DNA from: Bacillota bacterium
GTDB taxonomy: Bacteria; Actinomycetota; Aquicultoria; Aquicultorales; Aquicultoraceae
Direction: 5' to 3'
DNA: 64,000 bases
Assembly: GCA_023511485.1 (NCBI GenBank)
Contig: JAIMBH010000006.1
Location: 22,206-86,205, forward strand
The notes below the pieces were generated by a model, which worked only from the letters and a program-made list of their open reading frames with translations, was not told where the DNA came from and did no database searches. Shown piece by piece: positions 32,241 through 42,184 of this stretch. The first letter of the stretch is position 1. Every line of letters starts with the position of its first letter. A program made the position numbers and the translations under genes.

Positions 32241-34520
32241 ATGGTGCGCTTAGCCCATGAAGAAAGGGCAGTAGAGATTCGCGTTACGGGCATTGTACAA
32301 GGTGTCGGCTTTCGTCCTCATGTTTATAAATCTGCCGTTTCCCTTGGGTTAAACGGTTGGGTGATAAACACTACGGCAGGTGTTACCATAAGGCTCGAAG
32401 GCGAAGCTAGAAAGGTAGCGCAATTTATTGATGATCTCCGTGAGTTTCCGCCACCACTGTCTCGCATCGAGAGACTATCGGTAAAAGATGTAGAGCTGGA
32501 GGGATTTAGCACATTTTTTATCCACGAGAGTCAAAGCGTCTCCGACACCGATGTATCCATCCCTCCCGATGTCGGAACCTGTCCGGATTGCCTGCGCGAG
32601 TTTTGGAATGCAAAAGACCGCCGGTACGGCTATCCATTCATTAATTGCGTCAATTGCGGACCGCGTTTTTCTATAACCCGCGCCGCACCATACGACCGTA
32701 AAAATACGTCTATGCAGGCTTTTAAGATGTGTAAGGACTGCGCTGCCGAGTACAGAGATCCCACCGACCGTCGGTTCCATGCGGAGCCAAATGCCTGTCC
32801 GGCCTGCGGTCCGCAACTGATGCTAACATCTGCAGATGGAGCACCTATTAATGAAGATATCCGCGCTCTTTTAAAGATGGGATACATCTTAGCTATCAAG
32901 GGAATTGGTGGGTATCACCTTGCCTGCAACGCGCACAATTCTCGCGCGGTGCGTCTACTTCGCGAGAGGAAGAGGCGTCATGCAAAGCCTTTTGCACTGA
33001 TGTGCCGAGATTTGGAGACTGTTCGTAGGTATTGCAGGCTATCAGCTCGCGAAGAAGAGGTTTTAACGTCTCCGGCGCGGCCAATTGTGCTTCTTGAGAG
33101 AAGACTCTCAAGCGAACTCTGCGAGGATATAGCCCCGGGTCTTGATACGCTTGGCGTAATGCTTCCGTACACCGCTCTTCACTACGGGCTTTTTGATGAA
33201 GAGCTTTCTATACTGGTAATGACAAGCGCCAATATCAGCGGTGACCCACTCATCATAACCGAAGAAGATGCCTACGCGCACTTAAGCGACCTGGCGGATG
33301 CATTTGTCATACACAAGCGTGAGATAGTAAACAGGGCCGACGATTCGGTTGTCATGCTATTTGATAAAAATCCCTACTTAATACGGCGCTCGCGGGGGTA
33401 TGTGCCCCAGGGTATACGGCTTCCCCTTACCGTGTCTGCAGTTTTTGCGGCAGGTGGCGACCTGAAAAGCGTGTTTGCCTACGCCCAAAAAGACAAGGCA
33501 ATTTTAAGCCAGTACTTTGGGGACCTAGATAATCTTAAGAATCTTGACGCGTATAAAAAAGGTGCCCAGTTTTTTAGCGAGTTTTTAAAAATCAGGCCCG
33601 AGAAAGTTGTCTGCGACCTGCATCCCGACTATGTGAGTGCCAAGTTTGCCCAAGCATATGCCCAAGACCTTAATATGCCGCTTATAAAGGTGCAGCATCA
33701 CAAGGCGCATTTTGCATCAGCCATGGCTGATAACAATTTAAACGAAAAGGTCTTAGGTATTGTCTGCGACGGCACGGGCTATGGAGAAGACGGCACCGTT
33801 TGGGGCTTTGAGTTTTTCTACGGCGATTATTACGGTATTGAGAGGGTTGGCTCACTTATGCCTTTCATCCAGCCTCGGGGTGACGGTGTTATCAAGAACC
33901 CTCTTCAGATGGCCGCAGTTTTGCTTTTTGATATGTGGGAAGATAAAGACAAGGTTCTTGAAGTATTGCCAGACAGCGGTGGGCTTTTGCCCTTTGTCGA
34001 AGCTCAGATAAAAAGCGATTCTTTAGGTATAGCCTCATCAAGCTGCGGCAGGCTCTTTGATGCTGCTGCCGCACTATGCGGTTTTACAGGCAGAGTGACT
34101 TACGAGGGAGAAGCTGCCATGCGCATGGAAGCTATGGCACATAGAGCTTCTGAAGCCAAACCATACGGTTACGAGATAATAGAAGACAAGATGCTTTACT
34201 TATCTTGGAGCTTTGTAAGAGACATGGCTGAGGACAAACTAAGAGGTACCAACGCTGACATGCTTGCAGCGCGTTTTCACCAAACAATCGCAACAGCAAT
34301 CTGCGATATGATAAAAAGACTTGCCGCCCGTTACAGGACAGACAAAGTAGTTTTTTCGGGAGGTACTTTTCAAAATCGCTTTATTGCAAGCAGATTAGCC
34401 AAAGCTCTTCCCAGGTATAGCATAGAGCCCTACTTTCACCGTCAGGTACCAACGAACGATGGCGGAATAGCGCTGGGACAGCTTTTGTTAGCTGCTGGCG
34501 ACAACAGTACAGGGCTTTAG
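32241..34520 (+). CDS. hypF: Carbamoyltransferase HypF
   Basis: 759 residues. It makes the CN ligands of the [NiFe] site by transferring carbamoyl from carbamoyl phosphate to HypE. Domains in order: acylphosphatase (about 8-95, GIVQGVGFRPHVY); two zinc fingers (CPDCLREF ... NCVNCGPRF, CKDCAAEYRD ... NACPACGPQ); YrdC-like (about 200-390, KGIGGYHLACNA); Kae1-like carbamoyltransferase (about 395-755, KVQHHKAHFASAMADN, VVFSGGTFQNR). It is complete. It is followed by hypC-D-E 150 bases later. Confidence 0.96.
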   Translation: MVRLAHEERAVEIRVTGIVQGVGFRPHVYKSAVSLGLNGWVINTTAGVTIRLEGEARKVAQFIDDLREFPPPLSRIERLSVKDVELEGFSTFFIHESQSVSDTDVSIPPDVGTCPDCLREFWNAKDRRYGYPFINCVNCGPRFSITRAAPYDRKNTSMQAFKMCKDCAAEYRDPTDRRFHAEPNACPACGPQLMLTSADGAPINEDIRALLKMGYILAIKGIGGYHLACNAHNSRAVRLLRERKRRHAKPFALMCRDLETVRRYCRLSAREEEVLTSPARPIVLLERRLSSELCEDIAPGLDTLGVMLPYTALHYGLFDEELSILVMTSANISGDPLIITEEDAYAHLSDLADAFVIHKREIVNRADDSVVMLFDKNPYLIRRSRGYVPQGIRLPLTVSAVFAAGGDLKSVFAYAQKDKAILSQYFGDLDNLKNLDAYKKGAQFFSEFLKIRPEKVVCDLHPDYVSAKFAQAYAQDLNMPLIKVQHHKAHFASAMADNNLNEKVLGIVCDGTGYGEDGTVWGFEFFYGDYYGIERVGSLMPFIQPRGDGVIKNPLQMAAVLLFDMWEDKDKVLEVLPDSGGLLPFVEAQIKSDSLGIASSSCGRLFDAAAALCGFTGRVTYEGEAAMRMEAMAHRASEAKPYGYEIIEDKMLYLSWSFVRDMAEDKLRGTNADMLAARFHQTIATAICDMIKRLAARYRTDKVVFSGGTFQNRFIASRLAKALPRYSIEPYFHRQVPTNDGGIALGQLLLAAGDNSTGL

Positions 34521-34672: not shown

Positions 34673-34903
34673 ATGTGTCTTGCCGTTCCATCAAAGATCG
34701 TCTCGATAGACGAGGGTGGTTTTACCGCCGATGTTGATGTCTTAGGAAACATAAAGAAGGTGGGTATTATCCTTGTTCCAAATGCAAGCGTTGGAAATTG
34801 GGTACTAGTTCATGCTGGGCAGGCGATTAGTGTAGTTTCAGAGGAAGAGGCAAGTGCTTCACTTGAGACGTGGGAGGAAGTACTCCGTGATTACGAAGCT
34901 TGA
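34673..34903 (+). CDS. hypC: Hydrogenase maturation chaperone HypC
   Basis: 76 residues. The essential Cys is at position 2 (MCLAVPSKIVSIDEGG), which fixes the start at ATG 34673 after CAGGAGG. HypC carries the Fe(CN)2CO unit with HypD and delivers it to the large subunit. Its end overlaps the start of hypD by 17 bases. Confidence 0.96.
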   Translation: MCLAVPSKIVSIDEGGFTADVDVLGNIKKVGIILVPNASVGNWVLVHAGQAISVVSEEEASASLETWEEVLRDYEA

Positions 34904-35978
34904 TAAGAAAAGATATTTCCAGCTACTAACAGAGAAATTGCATGAGGTCGCAGCCCGCCCAGTTAAGCTGATGGAGGTATGTGGCACGCACACGATGGCG
35001 ATAGGCAAAGCTGGCATTAGAGGTGTGCTACCGCAGCAGGTCGAGCTTATCTCCGGGCCTGGATGTCCGGTTTGCGTGACCGCCGATGCCGATATCGATG
35101 CCTTTATGCAACTAGCAGAGGATAATAGGGTAACCATTGCAACATATGGCGATATGATGCGTGTACCCGGCACTAAAGGGAGTCTGGCCGAGCTCAAGGC
35201 AAGGGGCGCGGATATAAGATTAGTCTACTCGGCACTGGAGGCGCTGTCATTTGCAAGGGCCGAGCCATCCCGTGAGATAGTATTTCTTGGGGTTGGTTTT
35301 GAGACAACTGCACCTGCTACCGCACATGCCGTTAAAGTGGCGAAGCAGGAAGGCTTAGCAAACTTTAGCATCTACAACCTTCATAAGACAGTACCTGAAG
35401 CTTTAAGGGTTCTGGTCCAAGATAAAGCGACAAGCATCGATGGATTTATACTTCCCGGTCATGTAAGCGTTATTATCGGAGAGGCTCCATACCAGTTTCT
35501 CGCTGAGGAATTCGGAGCGGTGGGGGCTATCGCTGGGTTTGAGCCGCCCGAGATAATGGTTGCGGTATTAAAGCTTGTAAAAGATATAAACGCGGGCAAG
35601 CCGGTAATAACGAATCTTTACCGCAAAGTCGTGCGCTCGGAAGGCAATATAGTTGCACAGCGGTTGCTTGATGAGGTCTTCAAAAAGTCGAGTGCCGAAT
35701 GGCGCGGCCTTGGGGTGATTCCTGGTAGCGGTCTTGCACTTAGAGAAGAGTTTGAGCAGTTTGATGCAGCCCGGAAATTTGCAGTTGAACGAAGAAGCGT
35801 AAAATTTCACTCAGGGTGCCGCTGCGGCGAGATCTTAAAAGGCGTCATCAAACCAAAGCAATGCGCTCTGTTTGGCAGGCGCTGTACTCCTGATAATCCA
35901 GTAGGTCCATGTATGGTGTCAAGCGAAGGAACATGTGCAGCTTATTATCTCTACCATGGGGGCGAAGAAGTTGTCTGA
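34887..35978 (+). CDS. hypD: Hydrogenase maturation protein HypD
   Basis: 363 residues and a [4Fe-4S] protein, the scaffold on which the Fe(CN)2CO group is assembled. The motifs are LMEVCGTHTMAIGKAG, SGPGCPVCVT, LGVGFETTAPATAH, LPGHVSVIIG, and a C-terminal Cys-rich region SGCRCGEILKG through CALFGRRCTPDNPVGPC. GTG 34887 is chosen: GGGAGG lies 9 bases upstream, within the end of hypC. Confidence 0.96.
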   Translation: MITKLDKKRYFQLLTEKLHEVAARPVKLMEVCGTHTMAIGKAGIRGVLPQQVELISGPGCPVCVTADADIDAFMQLAEDNRVTIATYGDMMRVPGTKGSLAELKARGADIRLVYSALEALSFARAEPSREIVFLGVGFETTAPATAHAVKVAKQEGLANFSIYNLHKTVPEALRVLVQDKATSIDGFILPGHVSVIIGEAPYQFLAEEFGAVGAIAGFEPPEIMVAVLKLVKDINAGKPVITNLYRKVVRSEGNIVAQRLLDEVFKKSSAEWRGLGVIPGSGLALREEFEQFDAARKFAVERRSVKFHSGCRCGEILKGVIKPKQCALFGRRCTPDNPVGPCMVSSEGTCAAYYLYHGGEEVV

Positions 35979-36969
35979 AAAGGTACGTTTAGCTCATGGC
36001 AGTGGCGGTGAGATGACTGCGCGGCTTATCGAAGAAGTCTTTTATACTTATCTAGGCGGTGATCTAAAGAGTGCAAATGACTCGGCCATTTTAGAGCTCG
36101 GCGGCAGGGCCGCATTTACCACCGATTCATTTGTTATTAGTCCGCTCTTCTTTCCGGGAGGTGACATCGGAAAACTTGCCTTTTGTGGAACGGTAAATGA
36201 CCTTGCTGCTGCTGGAGCCAAACCGGTTGCTCTATCCGCCTCGTTTATAATCGAAGAAGGGATGGATATTGCAGAGCTTAAGCTTATTGTAATGAGTATG
36301 GGTGAGATAGCTCGCCAGACCGGCATACCCGTAGTTGCTGGAGATACAAAAGTCGTCGATAGCGGGAGCGCGGACAAGCTATTCATTACCACATCCGGTA
36401 TTGGAATAATCCCCGAGGGAGTTGACTATCACCCGCGCTATATCCAGCAAGGTGATAAGATAATTATAAGCGGCACCGTAGGTGATCATGGCTATTGCAT
36501 TACCACTATTCGTGAGGGTATTGATATCCAAAGCTCTGTTATGAGTGACTGCCAGCCACTGCACGGGCTTGTTTCGTTGCTGACTCACTTTGCACGAGAT
36601 GTGCGTGCGGTGCGCGATGCTACACGCGGGGGGCTAGGGACGGTCCTTAACGAGTGGGCTCAGCAAAGCAACCGGGGCATCCTTGTTTTTGAGAATTTAA
36701 TACCGGTAAAAGATGAGGTAAAAGGCGGATGTTCGCTTCTTGGCATTGAGCCCATATATCTTGCTAACGAAGGCAAGATGGTCTTCGCTGTTGCACCTGA
36801 GATAGCCGGCCAAGTCATAGATATTTTAAGAAACCATCCCGCTGGAAGCGATGCCGCCATCATAGGTGAAGTTACTGCCGGAAATCCACAGGTAATAATG
36901 GAAACTGAGTGGGGGACAAAAAGAATAGTGCCTGTACCTCGTGGCGAGATACTGCCAAGAATCTGTTAG
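35956..36969 (+). CDS. hypE: Hydrogenase maturation protein HypE
   Basis: PurM-like ATPase that dehydrates the carbamoyl group on its own C-terminal Cys to thiocyanate. N-terminal motifs are VRLAHGSGGEMTARLIEE and NDSAILEL, the core includes AAGAKPVALSASFIIEEG, and the C-terminus ends P-R-I-C as required. The start is ambiguous. ATG 35956 (337 residues) fits homologues, while GTG 35935 has a GAAGGA upstream. Both overlap hypD. hypA and hypB are not in the window. Confidence 0.95.
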   Translation: MGAKKLSEKVRLAHGSGGEMTARLIEEVFYTYLGGDLKSANDSAILELGGRAAFTTDSFVISPLFFPGGDIGKLAFCGTVNDLAAAGAKPVALSASFIIEEGMDIAELKLIVMSMGEIARQTGIPVVAGDTKVVDSGSADKLFITTSGIGIIPEGVDYHPRYIQQGDKIIISGTVGDHGYCITTIREGIDIQSSVMSDCQPLHGLVSLLTHFARDVRAVRDATRGGLGTVLNEWAQQSNRGILVFENLIPVKDEVKGGCSLLGIEPIYLANEGKMVFAVAPEIAGQVIDILRNHPAGSDAAIIGEVTAGNPQVIMETEWGTKRIVPVPRGEILPRIC

Positions 36970-37092: not shown

Positions 37093-37219
37093 AAATAACT
37101 TATTGATTAGTTAACTGAGTCAGAAAGGCGGTGGGGGTATAGGAAAAGCTTCGTTTTTCTCCAGACATGTCCTTTTGTAAAGCAAGACCATGGTGCATAA
37201 GGGGAGGTGTAGATGGTTT

Positions 37220-38305
37220 ATGCTTGAGCTAAGTGAGATCTTTGGAAAAAAGTTCAGCCGAAGGGATTTTCTAAAGTATAGCTCGACCATAGCTGTGTTA
37301 TTAGGGCTGTCGGAAGCTTATGTACCGCGAATTGCCGATGCTTTAGAAACAATCACATCAAAGAAGCAGCCGGTGATTTGGCTAAACGGTTCAGGTTGCA
37401 CCGGTTGCACAGTATCCTTCGCTAATAGCCGCTACCCCACGGTTTCTGAACTTGTTCTCGACACAATCTCGGTTAAATACAACGAAACACTTATGGCTGC
37501 AAGCGGGGAGGTAGCTGAGAAAGCCTTGGAAGATGCTGTTAACCAATTCAAAGGCAAGTATATCATGGTAGTAGAGGGGGCTATTCCCACGAAAGAAAAC
37601 GGCATCTACTGCAAGAGCGGAGGAAAGACTTTCCTGGAAACAGTGAAGATGGTTGCCAAGGGTGCGGCATACAATGTGGCCGTGGGGACTTGTGCATCTT
37701 TTGGTGGGATACCTGCAGCCCAGCCGAATCCCACTGGTTGTAAGGGACTAAAAGATGTTATCGGGGGTACGGTACTTAACATTCCTGGTTGCCCACCGCA
37801 TCCAGACTGGGTAGTAGGTTCTCTAGTTAATATCCTAATGTTCGGTAAAGTTCCTGCTTTAGATGAGCATGGCCGACCGGAGATGTTTTATGGGAAAGTC
37901 ATCCATGAAAATTGCCCGCGCCGCGGAGCGTACGAGCAGGGCAGCTTCGTCAAGAACTTCGGAGTTGCGCTTACTAATATTGAGGGCTGTATGGGAGCCA
38001 AGGGGTGTCGTGGCCCAATCGCTCACGCCGACTGTCCGCAACGTCTGTGGAACAGCGGCGTGAATTTTTGTATTGGGGCCAGTGCTCCCTGTGCTGGATG
38101 TACAGAACCCGATTTCCCCAGAATGTTACTCTTTGAACCTATTCCAGAGGTGACTAAACAGATTGAAGCAGGCAAAGAGGGAGCCGTCGGTACTTTTGGA
38201 GCCAGCCTTGGCGGAGCGGTAGCCGGAGCAGCTGTAGCTGCCGGAGCCATGTATCTGGCCCGCGAGAAGAACAGGCAAAGCTCAGAAGGCAAAAAGGAGG
38301 TGTAG
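37220..38305 (+). CDS. [NiFe(Se)] hydrogenase small subunit, Tat-exported
   Basis: 361 residues. A Tat signal FSRRDFLKYSS (Arg14-Arg15) leads an exported iron-sulfur subunit. Proximal-cluster ligands are Cys60 and Cys63 (GSGCTGCTVS), Cys158 and Cys191. The distal-cluster ligands are His229, Cys232, Cys257 and Cys263. The medial site has Cys272, Cys284, Cys291 and Cys294. Cys284 replaces the Pro that gives [3Fe-4S] in standard group 1 enzymes, so all three clusters are probably [4Fe-4S]. A C-terminal hydrophobic helix (about 326-346) anchors it in the membrane. GGGGAGG precedes ATG 37220. It forms an operon with the large subunit. Confidence 0.95.
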   Translation: MLELSEIFGKKFSRRDFLKYSSTIAVLLGLSEAYVPRIADALETITSKKQPVIWLNGSGCTGCTVSFANSRYPTVSELVLDTISVKYNETLMAASGEVAEKALEDAVNQFKGKYIMVVEGAIPTKENGIYCKSGGKTFLETVKMVAKGAAYNVAVGTCASFGGIPAAQPNPTGCKGLKDVIGGTVLNIPGCPPHPDWVVGSLVNILMFGKVPALDEHGRPEMFYGKVIHENCPRRGAYEQGSFVKNFGVALTNIEGCMGAKGCRGPIAHADCPQRLWNSGVNFCIGASAPCAGCTEPDFPRMLLFEPIPEVTKQIEAGKEGAVGTFGASLGGAVAGAAVAAGAMYLAREKNRQSSEGKKEV

Positions 38306-38308
38306 TAA

Positions 38309-39856
38309 ATGGCGCAGAAAGTCGTTATTGACCCTATTAATAGAATAGAGGGGCATTTAAGCATCGAAGTAGATATCGACGGCGGGAAGGTAGTCGATGC
38401 CCGTGCATCAGGAACAATGTGGCGCGGCTTTGAGGTTATCTTAAGGGGAAGAGACCCGAGGGATGCCGCGGTTATTACCCAGCGTATCTGTGGTGTTTGT
38501 CCGGCAGAGCATGCGCATGCATCAACACAGAATCTTGATGCCGCATTTGGAGCGGAGGTGCCGGATAACGGGCGTATCATCCGCAACCTGGTGTGTGGTG
38601 CAAACTTTATCGCGTCCCACATTCTCCATTTCTATCACCTGTCTGCGCTCGATTATCTGGACATAATGGCCGTAGCCAGCTACACCGGAAATGATCCAGC
38701 TTTGCTGCAGCTCAAAGACAAAATTGTTGCACTTGTAAAAGCAGGCGATACCTCACCGCTAACACCACGATACGAGCCTGACGAATTTAGCGTGAACGAT
38801 CCGGAGATAGTGACATCGGCCGTACACCATTACTTACAGGCCCTGGATATGCGTAGAAAAGCGCAAGAGATGCTGGCTATCTTCGGGGGCAAAATGCCGC
38901 ATCACGTGTCTTTTGTTGCGGGCGGGGTAACCGTTCAGCCAACTGCAGATAGCATCGCGGCATTTCGCAGCCGATTGTTAGAGTTGATCGACTTTATTAA
39001 CAATGTTTACCTCCAGGATGTCCTGACTCTGGGTACAGGACCGCTAAAGCCGATACACGACGCAAAGATAGGTTTCGGTCCTGGTAACTTCCTTGCGTTT
39101 GGCATGTTTGACCTTGGAAAGTCGGGAGATTACAAAAACCGGTTCCTTAAATCAGGGGCGATATTTGGTGGCAACATCAGTAAGGTAAACCCGCTTGACC
39201 CATCTAAAATCGAAGAGCAGGTAAAGTATTCCTGGTATGACGATAGCAACACCGGTAAGCATCCAAGTGAGGTTCAGACAAATCCAAGCCCAAACAAAGA
39301 AGGTGCCTACTCGTGGGTTAAGGCCATGAGATATGATGGAAAACCAATGGAAGTAGGACCTTTGGCCAGGATGTTGGTAACTCAGGATAAGGGATTTATG
39401 GATTTGGTATCCAAAATAGGGGCCTGGCCGTCGGCAGTGGCCCGCCACGCGGCACGTGCCTACGAGTGCAAGATGGTAGCAGAGGGCATGATGAGCTGGC
39501 TTGAACAATTGAAACCGGGCCAACCGGTATGCGATGAAAAGCCTGTTCCCCAGTCAGGCGAAGGCATGGGTTTAGTTGAGGCGGCTAGAGGTGTACTGGG
39601 TCACTTTATGGAAATTGAAAACGGCAAGATCAAGCGTTACCAGTGCACACCGCCAACCAACTGGAATGCGGCGCCAATGGATGATAAGGGTGTAAAAGGT
39701 CCGATTGAGCAGGCCCTAATTGGAACGCCTGTGCCTGATCCAAAGAACCCTCTCAACGTTGTAAGGGTTGTCCGATCATATGACCCGTGAATGGGCTGTG
39801 CGATACATCTGATTCGGTCTGAATCAGACGAAGTCATGAAGTTCAGGGTCATATAG
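38309..39856 (+). CDS. [NiFeSe] hydrogenase large subunit, selenoprotein read through UGA at 39788
   Basis: 515 residues when the in-frame TGA (39788-39790) is read as selenocysteine. L1 is RICGVCPAEHAHAS, with Cys61 and Cys64. After Sec494 the frame gives M-G-C-A-I-H, so L2 is D-P-U-x-x-C-x-x-H (Sec494, Cys497, His500). Then comes a 15-residue tail to TAG 39854-39856, the normal length for a peptide removed after His by the protease encoded next. Stopping at 39790 would remove two of four Ni ligands from an otherwise intact enzyme. A SECIS-like hairpin lies at 39808-39828. The enzyme oxidises or produces H2 on the outer face of the membrane. AAAGGAGG precedes the ATG. Confidence 0.93.
39808..39828 (+). 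promoter_or_regulatory. SECIS-like element directing selenocysteine insertion
   Basis: TCTGATTC (39808-39815) and GAATCAGA (39821-39828) form a perfect 8-bp stem with apical loop GGTCT (39816-39820). The loop begins 25 nt after the UGA. This distance and the G-rich loop fit bacterial SECIS rules, and GGUCU is the apical loop core of the E. coli fdhF SECIS. It lies inside the coding sequence, as in other bacteria. Confidence 0.87.
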
Positions 39857-39884
39857 AATTTGCGGGTAAAAGATAAGGTGGGTT

Positions 39885-40397
39885 ATGGCTGATAATGGAA
39901 GGAATGAAGTTCTAGTTCTAGGCGTTGGCAATATTTTGCTTAAAGACGAGGGCATTGGAGTGCATGTGGTAAAAGCCATGCAGGACGTGCAATTGCCCGA
40001 TAGCGTTACGCTGTTTGATGGAGGAGCTGGAGGGATTGACCTTCTTGAGCAAATAGAAAGGGCCGACCGCCTCATCATAATCGACGCCATCGATGCTGGA
40101 GACGAGCCGGGTACCGTATTTCGGTTTAAACCCGATGAAGTCAAAGCGTTATTGGATGAGCATAAAACATCTCTACATCAAGTCGATCTCTACGACACGT
40201 TGAAACTTGCCAAATTCATCGGTTGCTATCCAGAAACGGTTATTATTGGAATACAGCCAAAAGAGATCGCCTGGGGAACTGAACCAACTCCTGACATATC
40301 TGCTCAGATACCTCGAGTAATCGACCTTGTAACCCGTGAAATACTAGCCATAAAGGGTGAACCTTACTGTGGAGGGAGTGATAAGCAATGGGTATAA
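39885..40397 (+). CDS. Hydrogenase maturation endopeptidase (HyaD/HybD family)
   Basis: 170 residues. It removes the C-terminal peptide of the large subunit after Ni insertion. The Ni-sensing residues are the Glu in LLKDEGIGVHVV, the Asp in IIDAIDAGDEPG and the His in SLHQVDLYDTL. The N-terminus VLVLGVGNILLKDEG is typical of the fold. It must here recognise a Sec-containing substrate. It overlaps the next gene by 10 bases. Confidence 0.95.
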   Translation: MADNGRNEVLVLGVGNILLKDEGIGVHVVKAMQDVQLPDSVTLFDGGAGGIDLLEQIERADRLIIIDAIDAGDEPGTVFRFKPDEVKALLDEHKTSLHQVDLYDTLKLAKFIGCYPETVIIGIQPKEIAWGTEPTPDISAQIPRVIDLVTREILAIKGEPYCGGSDKQWV

Positions 40398-41260
40398 GCC
40401 GGAGAGACTTCATTAAAATTTCCGGTTTAACGGCTGCCGGTATTGCGGCGGGCGGTTTAAATGCAAGCACTCCTGCCCTGGCAGAAACAAGGGGGATTTC
40501 GGGCGTCGCAGAAAAAGCTCTGCTTAACGATCCCTCGAAATGTATCGGTTGTTTAAGCTGTGCAATTGCCTGCAAGAAATCCAACGGTTTGCCAAATGTT
40601 TATAAGTATTCATCATTTACCGACGGCAGTACTTGGACCACCGTCAAACTCAAGAACAGCAGCTTGCAGGGGCAACCAGCTAAATACAACCTAAAAGTTC
40701 AGTGCATGCATTGCAGCAAACCAAGTTGCGCCGCCGTATGTCCGACAGGAGCTATCTATAGGCGAGACGATGGAATTGTCGTTATCGATCAGGAAACATG
40801 CGTTGGATGCAAGTATTGCGTTCAGGCGTGCCCTTTCAATGTGCCGGGGGTAAGTTCTCAAACAGGCACATCGCGAAAGTGTACGCTTTGTGAAAATCGT
40901 TTAAGGGAAGGAAAAATCACTGCTTGCGCAGAAGCCTGCCCATTAGGAGCGATACAGTTTGGTGACCGCGAGGTCCTGCTAACCAAAGCGGAGGCACGCG
41001 TAAATGAGTTAAAGTCAAGCGGTTATACAAACGCGGCTGTGTTTGGCAAGCATGAACTGGGCGGTCTAAAAGTTCTCTACATTTTGCCCGACACTCCAGA
41101 GACCGTTGGGTTGCCGGCAAATCCCAGACTGGCTACCAGCGATTCGCTTTTGAAGTGGGCCGCAGGATTGGCGATGGCCGGTTATTTGGCTGCGTTTCCG
41201 CTGAGAAAGTTATTCCAAGATGAAGGTGACAAGACCGAAAACGCCATGAGGAAGGGGTGA
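40388..41260 (+). CDS. HybA-like periplasmic ferredoxin subunit, Tat-exported
   Basis: 290 residues. A Tat signal MGISRRDFIKIS is followed by four [4Fe-4S] Cys groups (CIGCLSCAIACK; CMHCSKPSCAAVCP; CVGCKYCVQACPF; CTLCENR...CAEACP). A C-terminal hydrophobic segment (LLKWAAGLAMAGYLAAFP) follows, as in HybA. It passes electrons between the hydrogenase small subunit and the NrfD-type membrane protein next to it. Confidence 0.93.
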   Translation: MGISRRDFIKISGLTAAGIAAGGLNASTPALAETRGISGVAEKALLNDPSKCIGCLSCAIACKKSNGLPNVYKYSSFTDGSTWTTVKLKNSSLQGQPAKYNLKVQCMHCSKPSCAAVCPTGAIYRRDDGIVVIDQETCVGCKYCVQACPFNVPGVSSQTGTSRKCTLCENRLREGKITACAEACPLGAIQFGDREVLLTKAEARVNELKSSGYTNAAVFGKHELGGLKVLYILPDTPETVGLPANPRLATSDSLLKWAAGLAMAGYLAAFPLRKLFQDEGDKTENAMRKG

Positions 41261-41266
41261 GGTAAA

Positions 41267-42184
41267 GTGTCTGAGGAGCTGAGATGGGGATTCCCGATAG
41301 CCCTGTACCTATTCGTTGGCGGAATGAGTGCCGCTGCCTATTATGTAGGTGTCTTTGCTGATTTAATTGGTAAAGATAGATACAAAGAGGTTGCCAGGAT
41401 AGGGTCATATATAGTTCTTATCCCGATAATCATCGGATTGCTGATGCTGGTTGTTGACCTGGGCAGGCCTCTAAGGTTTTGGCACTTGATGCTGCAACTT
41501 GGTCCGGTCAACACGGGGATAATAATCAGACCGGGTTCAGTAATGTCGCTCGGCACATGGTTTCTGGTTGCATTTTCAGCAGTTTGCGGCGTAGCCTATC
41601 CGTTGATGTGGCTGGCGAAAGAAAGGTTCGCAAGTAACATTCCAGTGTTATCCGCATTAGCAGAAAAAGATGACATTCGACGGGCGGTCGGGGTGCTAGG
41701 ATTACCCATTGCATTCCTGGTTGCAATCTATACAGGCGTGCTCTTAGCGGTATCATCAAGGCCGATCTGGGCAGATACCGTGCTATTGCCAGTATTGTTT
41801 GTGATATCTGCAACATCAACCGGGATAGCGGCAATAATTCTGCTATTAAGCCTGAGTAAAAGTGGTGCGCACCATGAGGTGCGCCGCCTTGAAAAGGGCG
41901 ATAATTTCATGATTAAATTAGAGCTCGTATTTGTGGCTATACTGGCTATAGCGCTGTTTATATCGCCACGGGCTATAGGGGCAATTAAAAACGTAATGGT
42001 CGGCGATTTTGCTGTATTTTTCTGGCTTGGTTTTATAGCCGCAGGTTTGTTAATACCTTTTAATATACAGAGGTTTGGCCTGCAAAATAGCAGCCTTAGC
42101 ACAAAAGGCCTCGCAGTTACATCGTCTGTACTGGTTCTATTAGGAGGGTTTTTCTTAAGGTTTATAGTCTTAATAGCGGCATAA
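41267..42184 (+). CDS. NrfD/HybB-type quinone-reactive membrane subunit
   Basis: 305 residues with about eight to nine membrane helices. The first is GFPIALYLFVGGMSAAAYYVG, and RPLRFWHLML follows, typical of the NrfD family. It exchanges electrons with quinone, completing an H2:quinone module like E. coli hydrogenase-2 (HybOABC). GTG 41267 follows a GAGG-like site. It is the last gene of the hydrogenase operon. Confidence 0.93.
   Translation: MSEELRWGFPIALYLFVGGMSAAAYYVGVFADLIGKDRYKEVARIGSYIVLIPIIIGLLMLVVDLGRPLRFWHLMLQLGPVNTGIIIRPGSVMSLGTWFLVAFSAVCGVAYPLMWLAKERFASNIPVLSALAEKDDIRRAVGVLGLPIAFLVAIYTGVLLAVSSRPIWADTVLLPVLFVISATSTGIAAIILLLSLSKSGAHHEVRRLEKGDNFMIKLELVFVAILAIALFISPRAIGAIKNVMVGDFAVFFWLGFIAAGLLIPFNIQRFGLQNSSLSTKGLAVTSSVLVLLGGFFLRFIVLIAA

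Follow-up and report, generated by a model that had tools for sequence, protein, structure and literature searches.

A probable [NiFeSe] hydrogenase with HybA- and HybB-like partners, predicted from an in-frame UGA in a likely actinobacterium

A hydrogenase large subunit gene in the window, the 64,000-nucleotide stretch of DNA analyzed here, contains an in-frame UGA (39788–39790) that is very probably read as selenocysteine (Sec) 494, which would make its product the large subunit of a [NiFeSe] hydrogenase. A Sec reading is likely on the basis of the codon, the conserved tail encoded beyond it, and the complete set of Sec genes in the same genome. Read conventionally, the open reading frame (38309–39790; all features of the window described here lie on the forward strand) ends with VVRSYDP at the TGA. 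Read through with U as residue 494, it continues as U-M-G-C-A-I-H-LIRSESDEVMKFRVI to a TAG at 39854–39856, yielding a 515-residue protein (38309–39856) in which PF00374 spans residues 39–500. A first-pass annotation had described both the R-S-Y-D-P end at 39788 and the extension by U-M-G-C-A-I-H and 15 further residues to the TAG, and the sequence and its translation confirm them.

The UGA takes the place of the first ligand in the second Ni motif, DP-C/U-x-x-C-x-x-H, which resumes downstream with the codons of C497 and H500 (39797–39808). The first Ni motif, RICGVC, contributes C61 and C64, whose codons lie at 38489–38500. When the extended frame is aligned with the Sec enzymes of Desulfovibrio and with Cys homologues, residue 494 falls in the Sec/Cys column; the UGA is aligned with the TGC or TGT of the Cys homologues and with the Sec (written X) of PDB entries 5jsh and 4kl8. 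The proposal that read-through restores the motif with Sec in first place holds, the frame being colinear with seven Cys relatives of 74–81% identity. In alignment with Cys relatives, the 21 codons past the UGA retain C497, H500, the exact length, and the KFRV ending, and tail length and the Cys and His ligands equal those of the seven near Cys loci (L052–L058). This tail is a stronger sign of a Sec reading than the hairpin discussed below. The 15-residue C-terminal peptide past H500 (39809–39853, its length given by the sequence) is the predicted substrate of a maturation protease, whose cleavage at this point is suggested by family resemblance.

The gene lies in an intact operon. Upstream is the hydrogenase small subunit (37190–38305; PF01058 and PF14720), whose N-terminal Tat-type leader (RRDFLK) aligns with the leaders of the small subunits in PDB entries 1h2a and 2wpn. 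The NiFe large and small subunit domains (PF00374, PF01058, and PF14720) and the R-x-C-G-x-C motif (RICGVC) are all present. Downstream are a HycI-family maturation protease (39885–40397; PF01750, 105 bits), a HybA-like Fe–S protein with a Tat signal (40388–41260; PF13247 and PF10518), and a HybB/NrfD-like membrane subunit predicted to face the quinone pool (41267–42184; PF03916, 154 bits). The latter two genes bear out, at the Pfam level, the earlier claim that the enzyme is joined to a HybA/HybB quinone module. Putative hypF (32241–34520), hypD (34854–35978), and hypE (35935–36969) genes for cofactor assembly were recognized by reading their translations. In the small subunit, the Cys of an NFC sequence aligns with that of the D. 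vulgaris NWC, and hydrogenase-1 has a Cys in the same column; a medial [4Fe-4S] cluster in the small subunit is a feature of [NiFeSe] hydrogenases according to passages of PMC10779653. The G+C content of the operon genes (0.46–0.505) is close to that of neighboring genes (0.48–0.52), and composition thus shows no sign of recent transfer.

The slot between hypD–hypE and a gltB-like cluster is common to the window and two further genomes, G007 and G009, in both of which hypD and hypE homologues also adjoin the hydrogenase. It holds the Sec-type operon with HybA/HybB in the window (37190–42184) and a different, Cys-type hydrogenase operon in G007, which belongs to the same genus (L141, 13074–16799).

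The genome comprises 2.37 Mb in 58 contigs and is rated 100% complete. The four genes that the first-pass annotation had named for a search are all found on contig C47: selA, selB, and selD, each above its curated cut-off, and selC, the tRNA-Sec with anticodon UCA. The selD gene itself contains an in-frame TGA, in the codon of U in GUAAK, and two fdhA genes carry an in-frame TGA before H (U-H). A second hydrogenase of the same genome, of the type 2 described below, reads DP-U-MACAVHVIEP. This gene (G000, contig C1, 6871–8516; L037, L046, and L139) has the TGA at the same codon and a putative cytochrome b gene after it; a single break in its reading frame, about halfway along and upstream of the TGA, reflects a real frameshift or an assembly error. 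Across the phylum, selA is found in 22 of 23 TGA genomes searched, that of the window included, the exception being G001, which is 77% complete (the search covered 23 of 25 TGA genomes, G075 and G264 standing outside it). The presence of selA does not discriminate between Sec and Cys, since it is also found in 17 of 18 genomes sampled through a Cys-type hydrogenase.

A predicted SECIS hairpin (39808–39828) starts at +18 after the UGA. It is a perfect 8-bp stem, UCUGAUUC-GGUCU-GAAUCAGA, with its loop at 39816–39820, 25 nt from the UGA, and its energy is −8.7 kcal/mol bare and −9.3 kcal/mol with dangling ends. In the portions of a 2026 review that were available (PMC13188914), the bSECIS model is given as a loop of 3–9 nt, a stem of 4–16 bp, a G in the first two loop positions, a spacing of 16–37 nt, and an energy of −7.5 kcal/mol or lower. 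With a loop of 5 nt, 8 bp, 25 nt, and −8.7 kcal/mol, the hairpin falls within every one of these constraints. The bare hairpin energies of the two fdhA genes and selD are −7.4, −6.3, and −6.4; the classical selenoprotein genes of this genome, measured bare, therefore miss the −7.5 cut-off themselves. GGUCU also forms the hairpin apex in both fdhA genes, the first G being scored as paired in the second of them, leaving the loop GUCU. The SECIS of E. coli fdhF has the same GGUCU loop.

An equal or stronger bSECIS-type hairpin follows 26 of the 1877 TGA trinucleotides on the two strands of the window. Random synonymous recoding of the tail reaches the strength of the hairpin in 385 of 20,000 cases, or 366 of 20,000 with a second seed, which places the hairpin alone near the 2% level. 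A GGUCU-loop hairpin at −7.4 kcal/mol or better appears in 5 of 20,000 recodings.

The position and folding of this hairpin are less regular. Its loop is at +25, whereas the loops of the other Sec loci, and those of the fdhA and selD genes of its own genome, lie at +17 to +19 (L034 is counted in this range by a hairpin scored without the G rule). With +4 as the 5′ end, the pairing probability falls from 0.98 for RNA ending at +42 to 0.78 at +52 and to 0.01–0.02 at +62 and beyond, while folding from the UGA or +1 to +57 gives 0.92–0.98; the result thus depends on the chosen RNA ends. In most longer RNA contexts the hairpin is not the favored fold. When the first 9 or 12 nt are omitted as ribosome-covered, rival structures of RNA ending between +52 and +72 outdo the bare hairpin by 2–3.3 kcal/mol, a difference that the binding of SelB might plausibly make up. 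The hairpin does not stand out when the whole region is folded, the z score of the full 73-nt fold being an unremarkable −0.93, and an Rfam scan of 39600–40000 at a permissive threshold returned two weak, irrelevant matches. Of the SECIS element proposed at first pass, the geometry and the GGUCU loop stand; the unusual spacing and the competing fold leave it less secure than was implied.

Of the 396 genomes sampled from the phylum, 25 have a TGA at this first-ligand codon, and the enzyme of the window is therefore no lone oddity. The suggestion that it is unusual in its lineage has to be narrowed accordingly: this copy is an outlier within the set. The 26 TGA loci, of which 25 have the motif tail, belong to two hydrogenase types (9 of type 1 and 17 of type 2), type 2 being only about 40% identical to the enzyme of the window, whose genome is the one genome with both. 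Type-1 TGA genes occur in 9 of the 36 genomes of the class, namely that of the window, seven with a complete tail, and G009 without a tail. Three of the 26 loci are irregular: G009 lacks the tail, the G001 gene is interrupted by a TAA, and the type-2 gene of the window's genome is frameshifted. Among database proteins, the 17 ranked right after the window's own (P0003–P0019, 67–82% identical) are all Cys enzymes. Among the best 120 of 7852 above-threshold proteins, 16 stop directly behind the DP, as is expected of truncated gene calls. They comprise the protein of the window, that of the decayed G009 operon, and 14 others, whose stop is probably a TGA and is seen to be one where a protein coincides with a class genome read as DNA. 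The large subunit of G033, from the same class, is identical over the tree columns to P0026 from Candidatus Oleimmundimicrobium sp., a genus assigned to Candidatus Aquicultoria within the Actinomycetota; the window probably comes from Aquicultoria as well.

Hairpins accompany these codons. With loci sharing an identical 90 nt entered once, a bSECIS-type hairpin that reaches −5.7 kcal/mol follows 22 of 23 distinct Sec loci versus 2 of the 60 Cys loci with 35% identity or more, and one that reaches −7.5 follows 15 of the 23. In the exception, L034, a hairpin at +17 has its first loop G replaced and reaches −8.1 without the G rule. If Cys loci of lower identity are included, 2 of all 72 pass −7.5 kcal/mol, both being distant paralogues. 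L154 and L155 (G075 and G264) have the TGA and tail but stand outside the 23-locus hairpin and Gly counts, and the tailless G009 is absent from all hairpin counts. In the 22 other Sec loci the pairing probability of the hairpin is mostly 0.8–0.99, and in 18 of them it never drops below 0.7 over the five lengths tried; it dips to 0.66 in L037 and is low at one length each in L035 and L097, and the value for L034 was computed on the wrong hairpin.

The TGA hydrogenases of the phylum (type 1, L093–L099; type 2, L027, L129–L136, and L154) share with the window the TGA codon, the tail, and a SECIS-like hairpin. They differ from it in the position of the hairpin (+17/+18) and in its loop, which is CGUGAU, GUG, or GUU (CUUGAU in L034). 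The four CGUGAU-form type-1 loci share an identical 18-nt hairpin core with 9 of the 10 type-2 loci in the comparison. The segment from +10 to +30 is 95% identical in DNA between the types, versus 71% before and 64% after it, in 40 pairs drawn from 4 of 8 type-1 and 10 of 15 type-2 Sec loci that were chosen for their CGUGAU-type hairpin, with the GUG/GUU-form loci and the window left out; such a pattern is indicative of selection on the RNA or of segment transfer between paralogues. In L027, L093, and their kin, with proteins about 40% identical, the near-identical segment could be a travelling SECIS cassette.

Two positions after the Sec (U+2), 8 of the 23 Sec loci have a Gly that is seen at this place in none of the 60 Cys loci and none of the 102 Cys database proteins (the two Cys sets overlap in part); the majority of Sec loci thus manage without it. 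The Gly is present in the enzyme of the window, in D. vulgaris, and in the 4kl8 chains. Since Sec is residue 489 in D. vulgaris in the accessible text of PMC10779653, U+2 corresponds to residue 491, and passages of PMC7497094 report that the G491A and G491S variants change O2 access.

Other loci of the survey are of separate interest. The in-frame TGAs of G020 and G038 were considered as Sec codons and rejected as ordinary stops following a Cys motif. L133, L131, and L134 (G155, G204, and G185) are type-2 TGA hydrogenases in small high-G+C genomes outside the class, and the G155 assembly is a single contig of 1,838,614 bases with about 66% G+C around the gene. In G030 (L061, 5001–11542), a TGA-type hydrogenase is followed by a putative formate dehydrogenase split at an in-frame stop and then by HybA- and NrfD-like genes, possibly a formate–hydrogen module with two selenoenzymes.

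The best solved-structure matches of the large subunit are the D. vulgaris [NiFeSe] enzymes (429 and 425 bits). HysAB of D. vulgaris Hildenborough and its kin (PDB 5jsh, 4kl8, and 1cc1) likewise have Sec first in the second Ni motif, Gly at U+2, and a large and a small subunit. The window differs from HysAB in that its operon includes HybA-like and NrfD/HybB-like genes, its host is likely an actinobacterium, and its nearest relatives are Cys enzymes. Partner genes of this kind are not known to accompany hysAB. At the Pfam level, the HybA- and HybB-like partners are shared with E. coli Hyb (hydrogenase 2), although the large subunit fits the [NiFeSe] structures better than that of Hyb (304 versus 429 bits). 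E. coli Hyb uses Cys.

The closest operons are those of Thermincola-type Bacillota, which are Cys type (L052–L058). The order small subunit–large subunit–HycI–HybA–HybB is the same in 6 of these 7 loci, L057 ending before HybB, and the large and small subunits are 75–82% and 71–74% identical to those of the window. In contrast to the window, all 7 have TGC or TGT for the TGA and Ala for the Gly at +2, and none of the 7 has a bSECIS-type hairpin below −2.3 kcal/mol.

A separate Cys-to-Sec conversion in the lineage of the window is likely from the sequences compared. Such conversions are known in other families, as passages of PMC1794560 describe. In a tree of 52 of the 82 rows of a quicker one, with motif and tail excluded and HysA sequences not among the rows, the window and G009 are the only TGA rows of the two clades around the window, one of 10 rows (support 100/99) and one of 20 (100/100). 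The tail of the window differs from those of 8 Cys relatives at 8–13 of 21 sites, compared with 83–101 of 493 in the body (Fisher p 0.00005–0.03, the tests not being independent). As a control, the Cys relatives differ among themselves at a mean of 5.1–8.6 of 21 tail and 67–93 of 493 body sites, and with 5–9 of 21 sites differing, the tail evolves fast regardless. When three Cys-type tails were recoded 20,000 times each, such a hairpin arose 0 times, whereas the peptide of the window gave 366. The divergence of the tail and the absence of the hairpin from recoded Cys tails are evidence for a separate conversion.

A fuller account can be offered tentatively, its parts taken together having somewhat less than an even chance of all being right. 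The Actinomycetota may hold at least two [NiFeSe] lineages hidden by gene calling, with the window close to the origin of one of them, in which a Thermincola-type Cys operon was converted. The Cys codon would have become UGA, and a new SECIS would have arisen with the GGUCU apex of the genome's fdhA genes at the unusual +25. Replacements in the disposable C-terminal peptide would have paid for the RNA structure, and the Gly at U+2 would be convergent with Desulfovibrio.

Alternatively, Sec may be ancestral in this branch, the Thermincola-type Bacillota having reverted to Cys and the SECIS of the window having moved from +17 to +25. This is a real possibility, although less likely than not. Consistent with it, all 7 tree rows of the sister group are Sec type (3 seen in DNA and 4 database proteins ending at DP), and AU tests do not reject a single clade of the 18 Cys rows without the window and G009 (p 0.39) or, with five genes, of the 7 Cys rows (p 0.35). 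However, both the 10-row and the 20-row clade that enclose the window are otherwise Cys, apart from G009, and the hairpin of the window is unlike those of the sister group in both position and sequence. A topology that joins the window to the sister Sec rows is weakly rejected (p 0.048, or 0.033 with G009 added), and one that unites the window and G009 in a clade is not (p 0.287). The fewest changes on the tree are five, and the five-gene tree does not settle the placement of the window among the Bacillota rows.

The strongest single fact in favor of the UGA being a real stop is G009, a genome of the same family. Its large subunit (L059, 72% identical) ends at the same TGA with unrelated DNA beyond, a frame change breaks its small subunit, and the protease, HybA, and HybB are absent; around the decayed operon (L059/L140), the hypD, hypE, and gltB-like neighbors remain. 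The behavior of the closest relatives past this codon, which the first-pass annotation had taken as decisive, is therefore divided: the nearest full-length ones continue with Cys and the same tail, and G009 ends there. On the stop reading, the gene of the window would be in early decay like G009 and would encode an inactive 493-residue large subunit; the displaced and rivalled hairpin and the broken frame of the genome's second hydrogenase gene could be seen in the same light. This is improbable given that the 21 codons after the UGA still encode C497, H500, and the KFRV ending at the exact length, that the operon of the window is intact, and that the tail can form a GGUCU hairpin, as the three recoded Cys tails did not. 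It is also at odds with a dN of 0.12–0.17 to five Cys relatives while dS is saturated (dN/dS is thus not computable, and dN alone is used). We read G009 as a relic that by chance broke at the UGA or immediately beyond it.

That the TGA is a misread or misassembled TGC or TGT in an ordinary Cys [NiFe] hydrogenase of the Thermincola type is the least probable reading and very unlikely: the next 17 database proteins are all Cys, such that a single base error could yield the TGA, but the separate genome G009 also has TGA at this codon in a syntenic locus, the downstream hairpin has the GGUCU apex of the genome's two fdhA genes, and the Gly at U+2 is found in none of the Cys loci or proteins counted.

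On the Sec reading, SelB carrying Sec-tRNA-Sec would recode the UGA by binding to the GGUCU hairpin, and the Hyp proteins would insert the NiFe(CN)2CO center. The selenium of Sec494 would be one of four Ni ligands, together with C61, C64, and C497, and the adjacent protease would cut after H500, removing the 15 residues. The Tat leader of the small subunit would export the pair of subunits to the outer face, where H2 would be oxidized and electrons passed to HybA, HybB, and the quinone pool. By analogy with Desulfovibrio, selenium may provide fast reactivation and oxidative protection. With less certainty, the operon would be of Thermincola type, its Cys codon having turned to Sec in this lineage and its hairpin having arisen through amino-acid replacements in the tail.

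The view that [NiFeSe] hydrogenases are known mainly from sulfate reducers and methanogens, voiced at first pass, agrees with the 2026 review, whose available portions place them in these groups only (PMC13188914), and it needs the qualification that a paper on Asgard archaea reports, in the text accessible, VhuU beyond them (PMC11291895). Among the titles and abstract starts of the literature matches listed, with supplements and most subscription journals outside the coverage, there is no [NiFeSe] hydrogenase in Actinomycetota. In two papers on related Actinobacteria, a term search of PMC7325909 finds selenocysteine, NiFeSe, and selenoprotein all absent, and PMC9686372, which describes the group 1i hydrogenase of Parvivirga hydrogeniphila (1.84 Mb, 67.7% G+C), contains "selen" four times, the passages shown concerning selenate or selenite and making no mention of Sec. 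Sulfate-reducer [NiFeSe] genes have also been annotated short at the opal codon, as part of PMC4730141 notes. Because gene calling cuts them at the UGA, such enzymes resemble defective large subunits and would escape surveys of H2 metabolism.

The enzyme class is already known; what would be new is its host, its genetic setting, and its probable route of origin. If the Sec reading is true, this would be a selenium hydrogenase outside the sulfate reducers and methanogens. It makes testable the question of how an enzyme can pass from Cys to Sec when its SECIS has to fit within coding sequence, and the coding sequence of 15 residues discarded by a protease would give the SECIS free room. The natural Sec/Cys pairs, with about 80% identity and Gly or Ala at U+2, would be good material for hydrogenase engineering.
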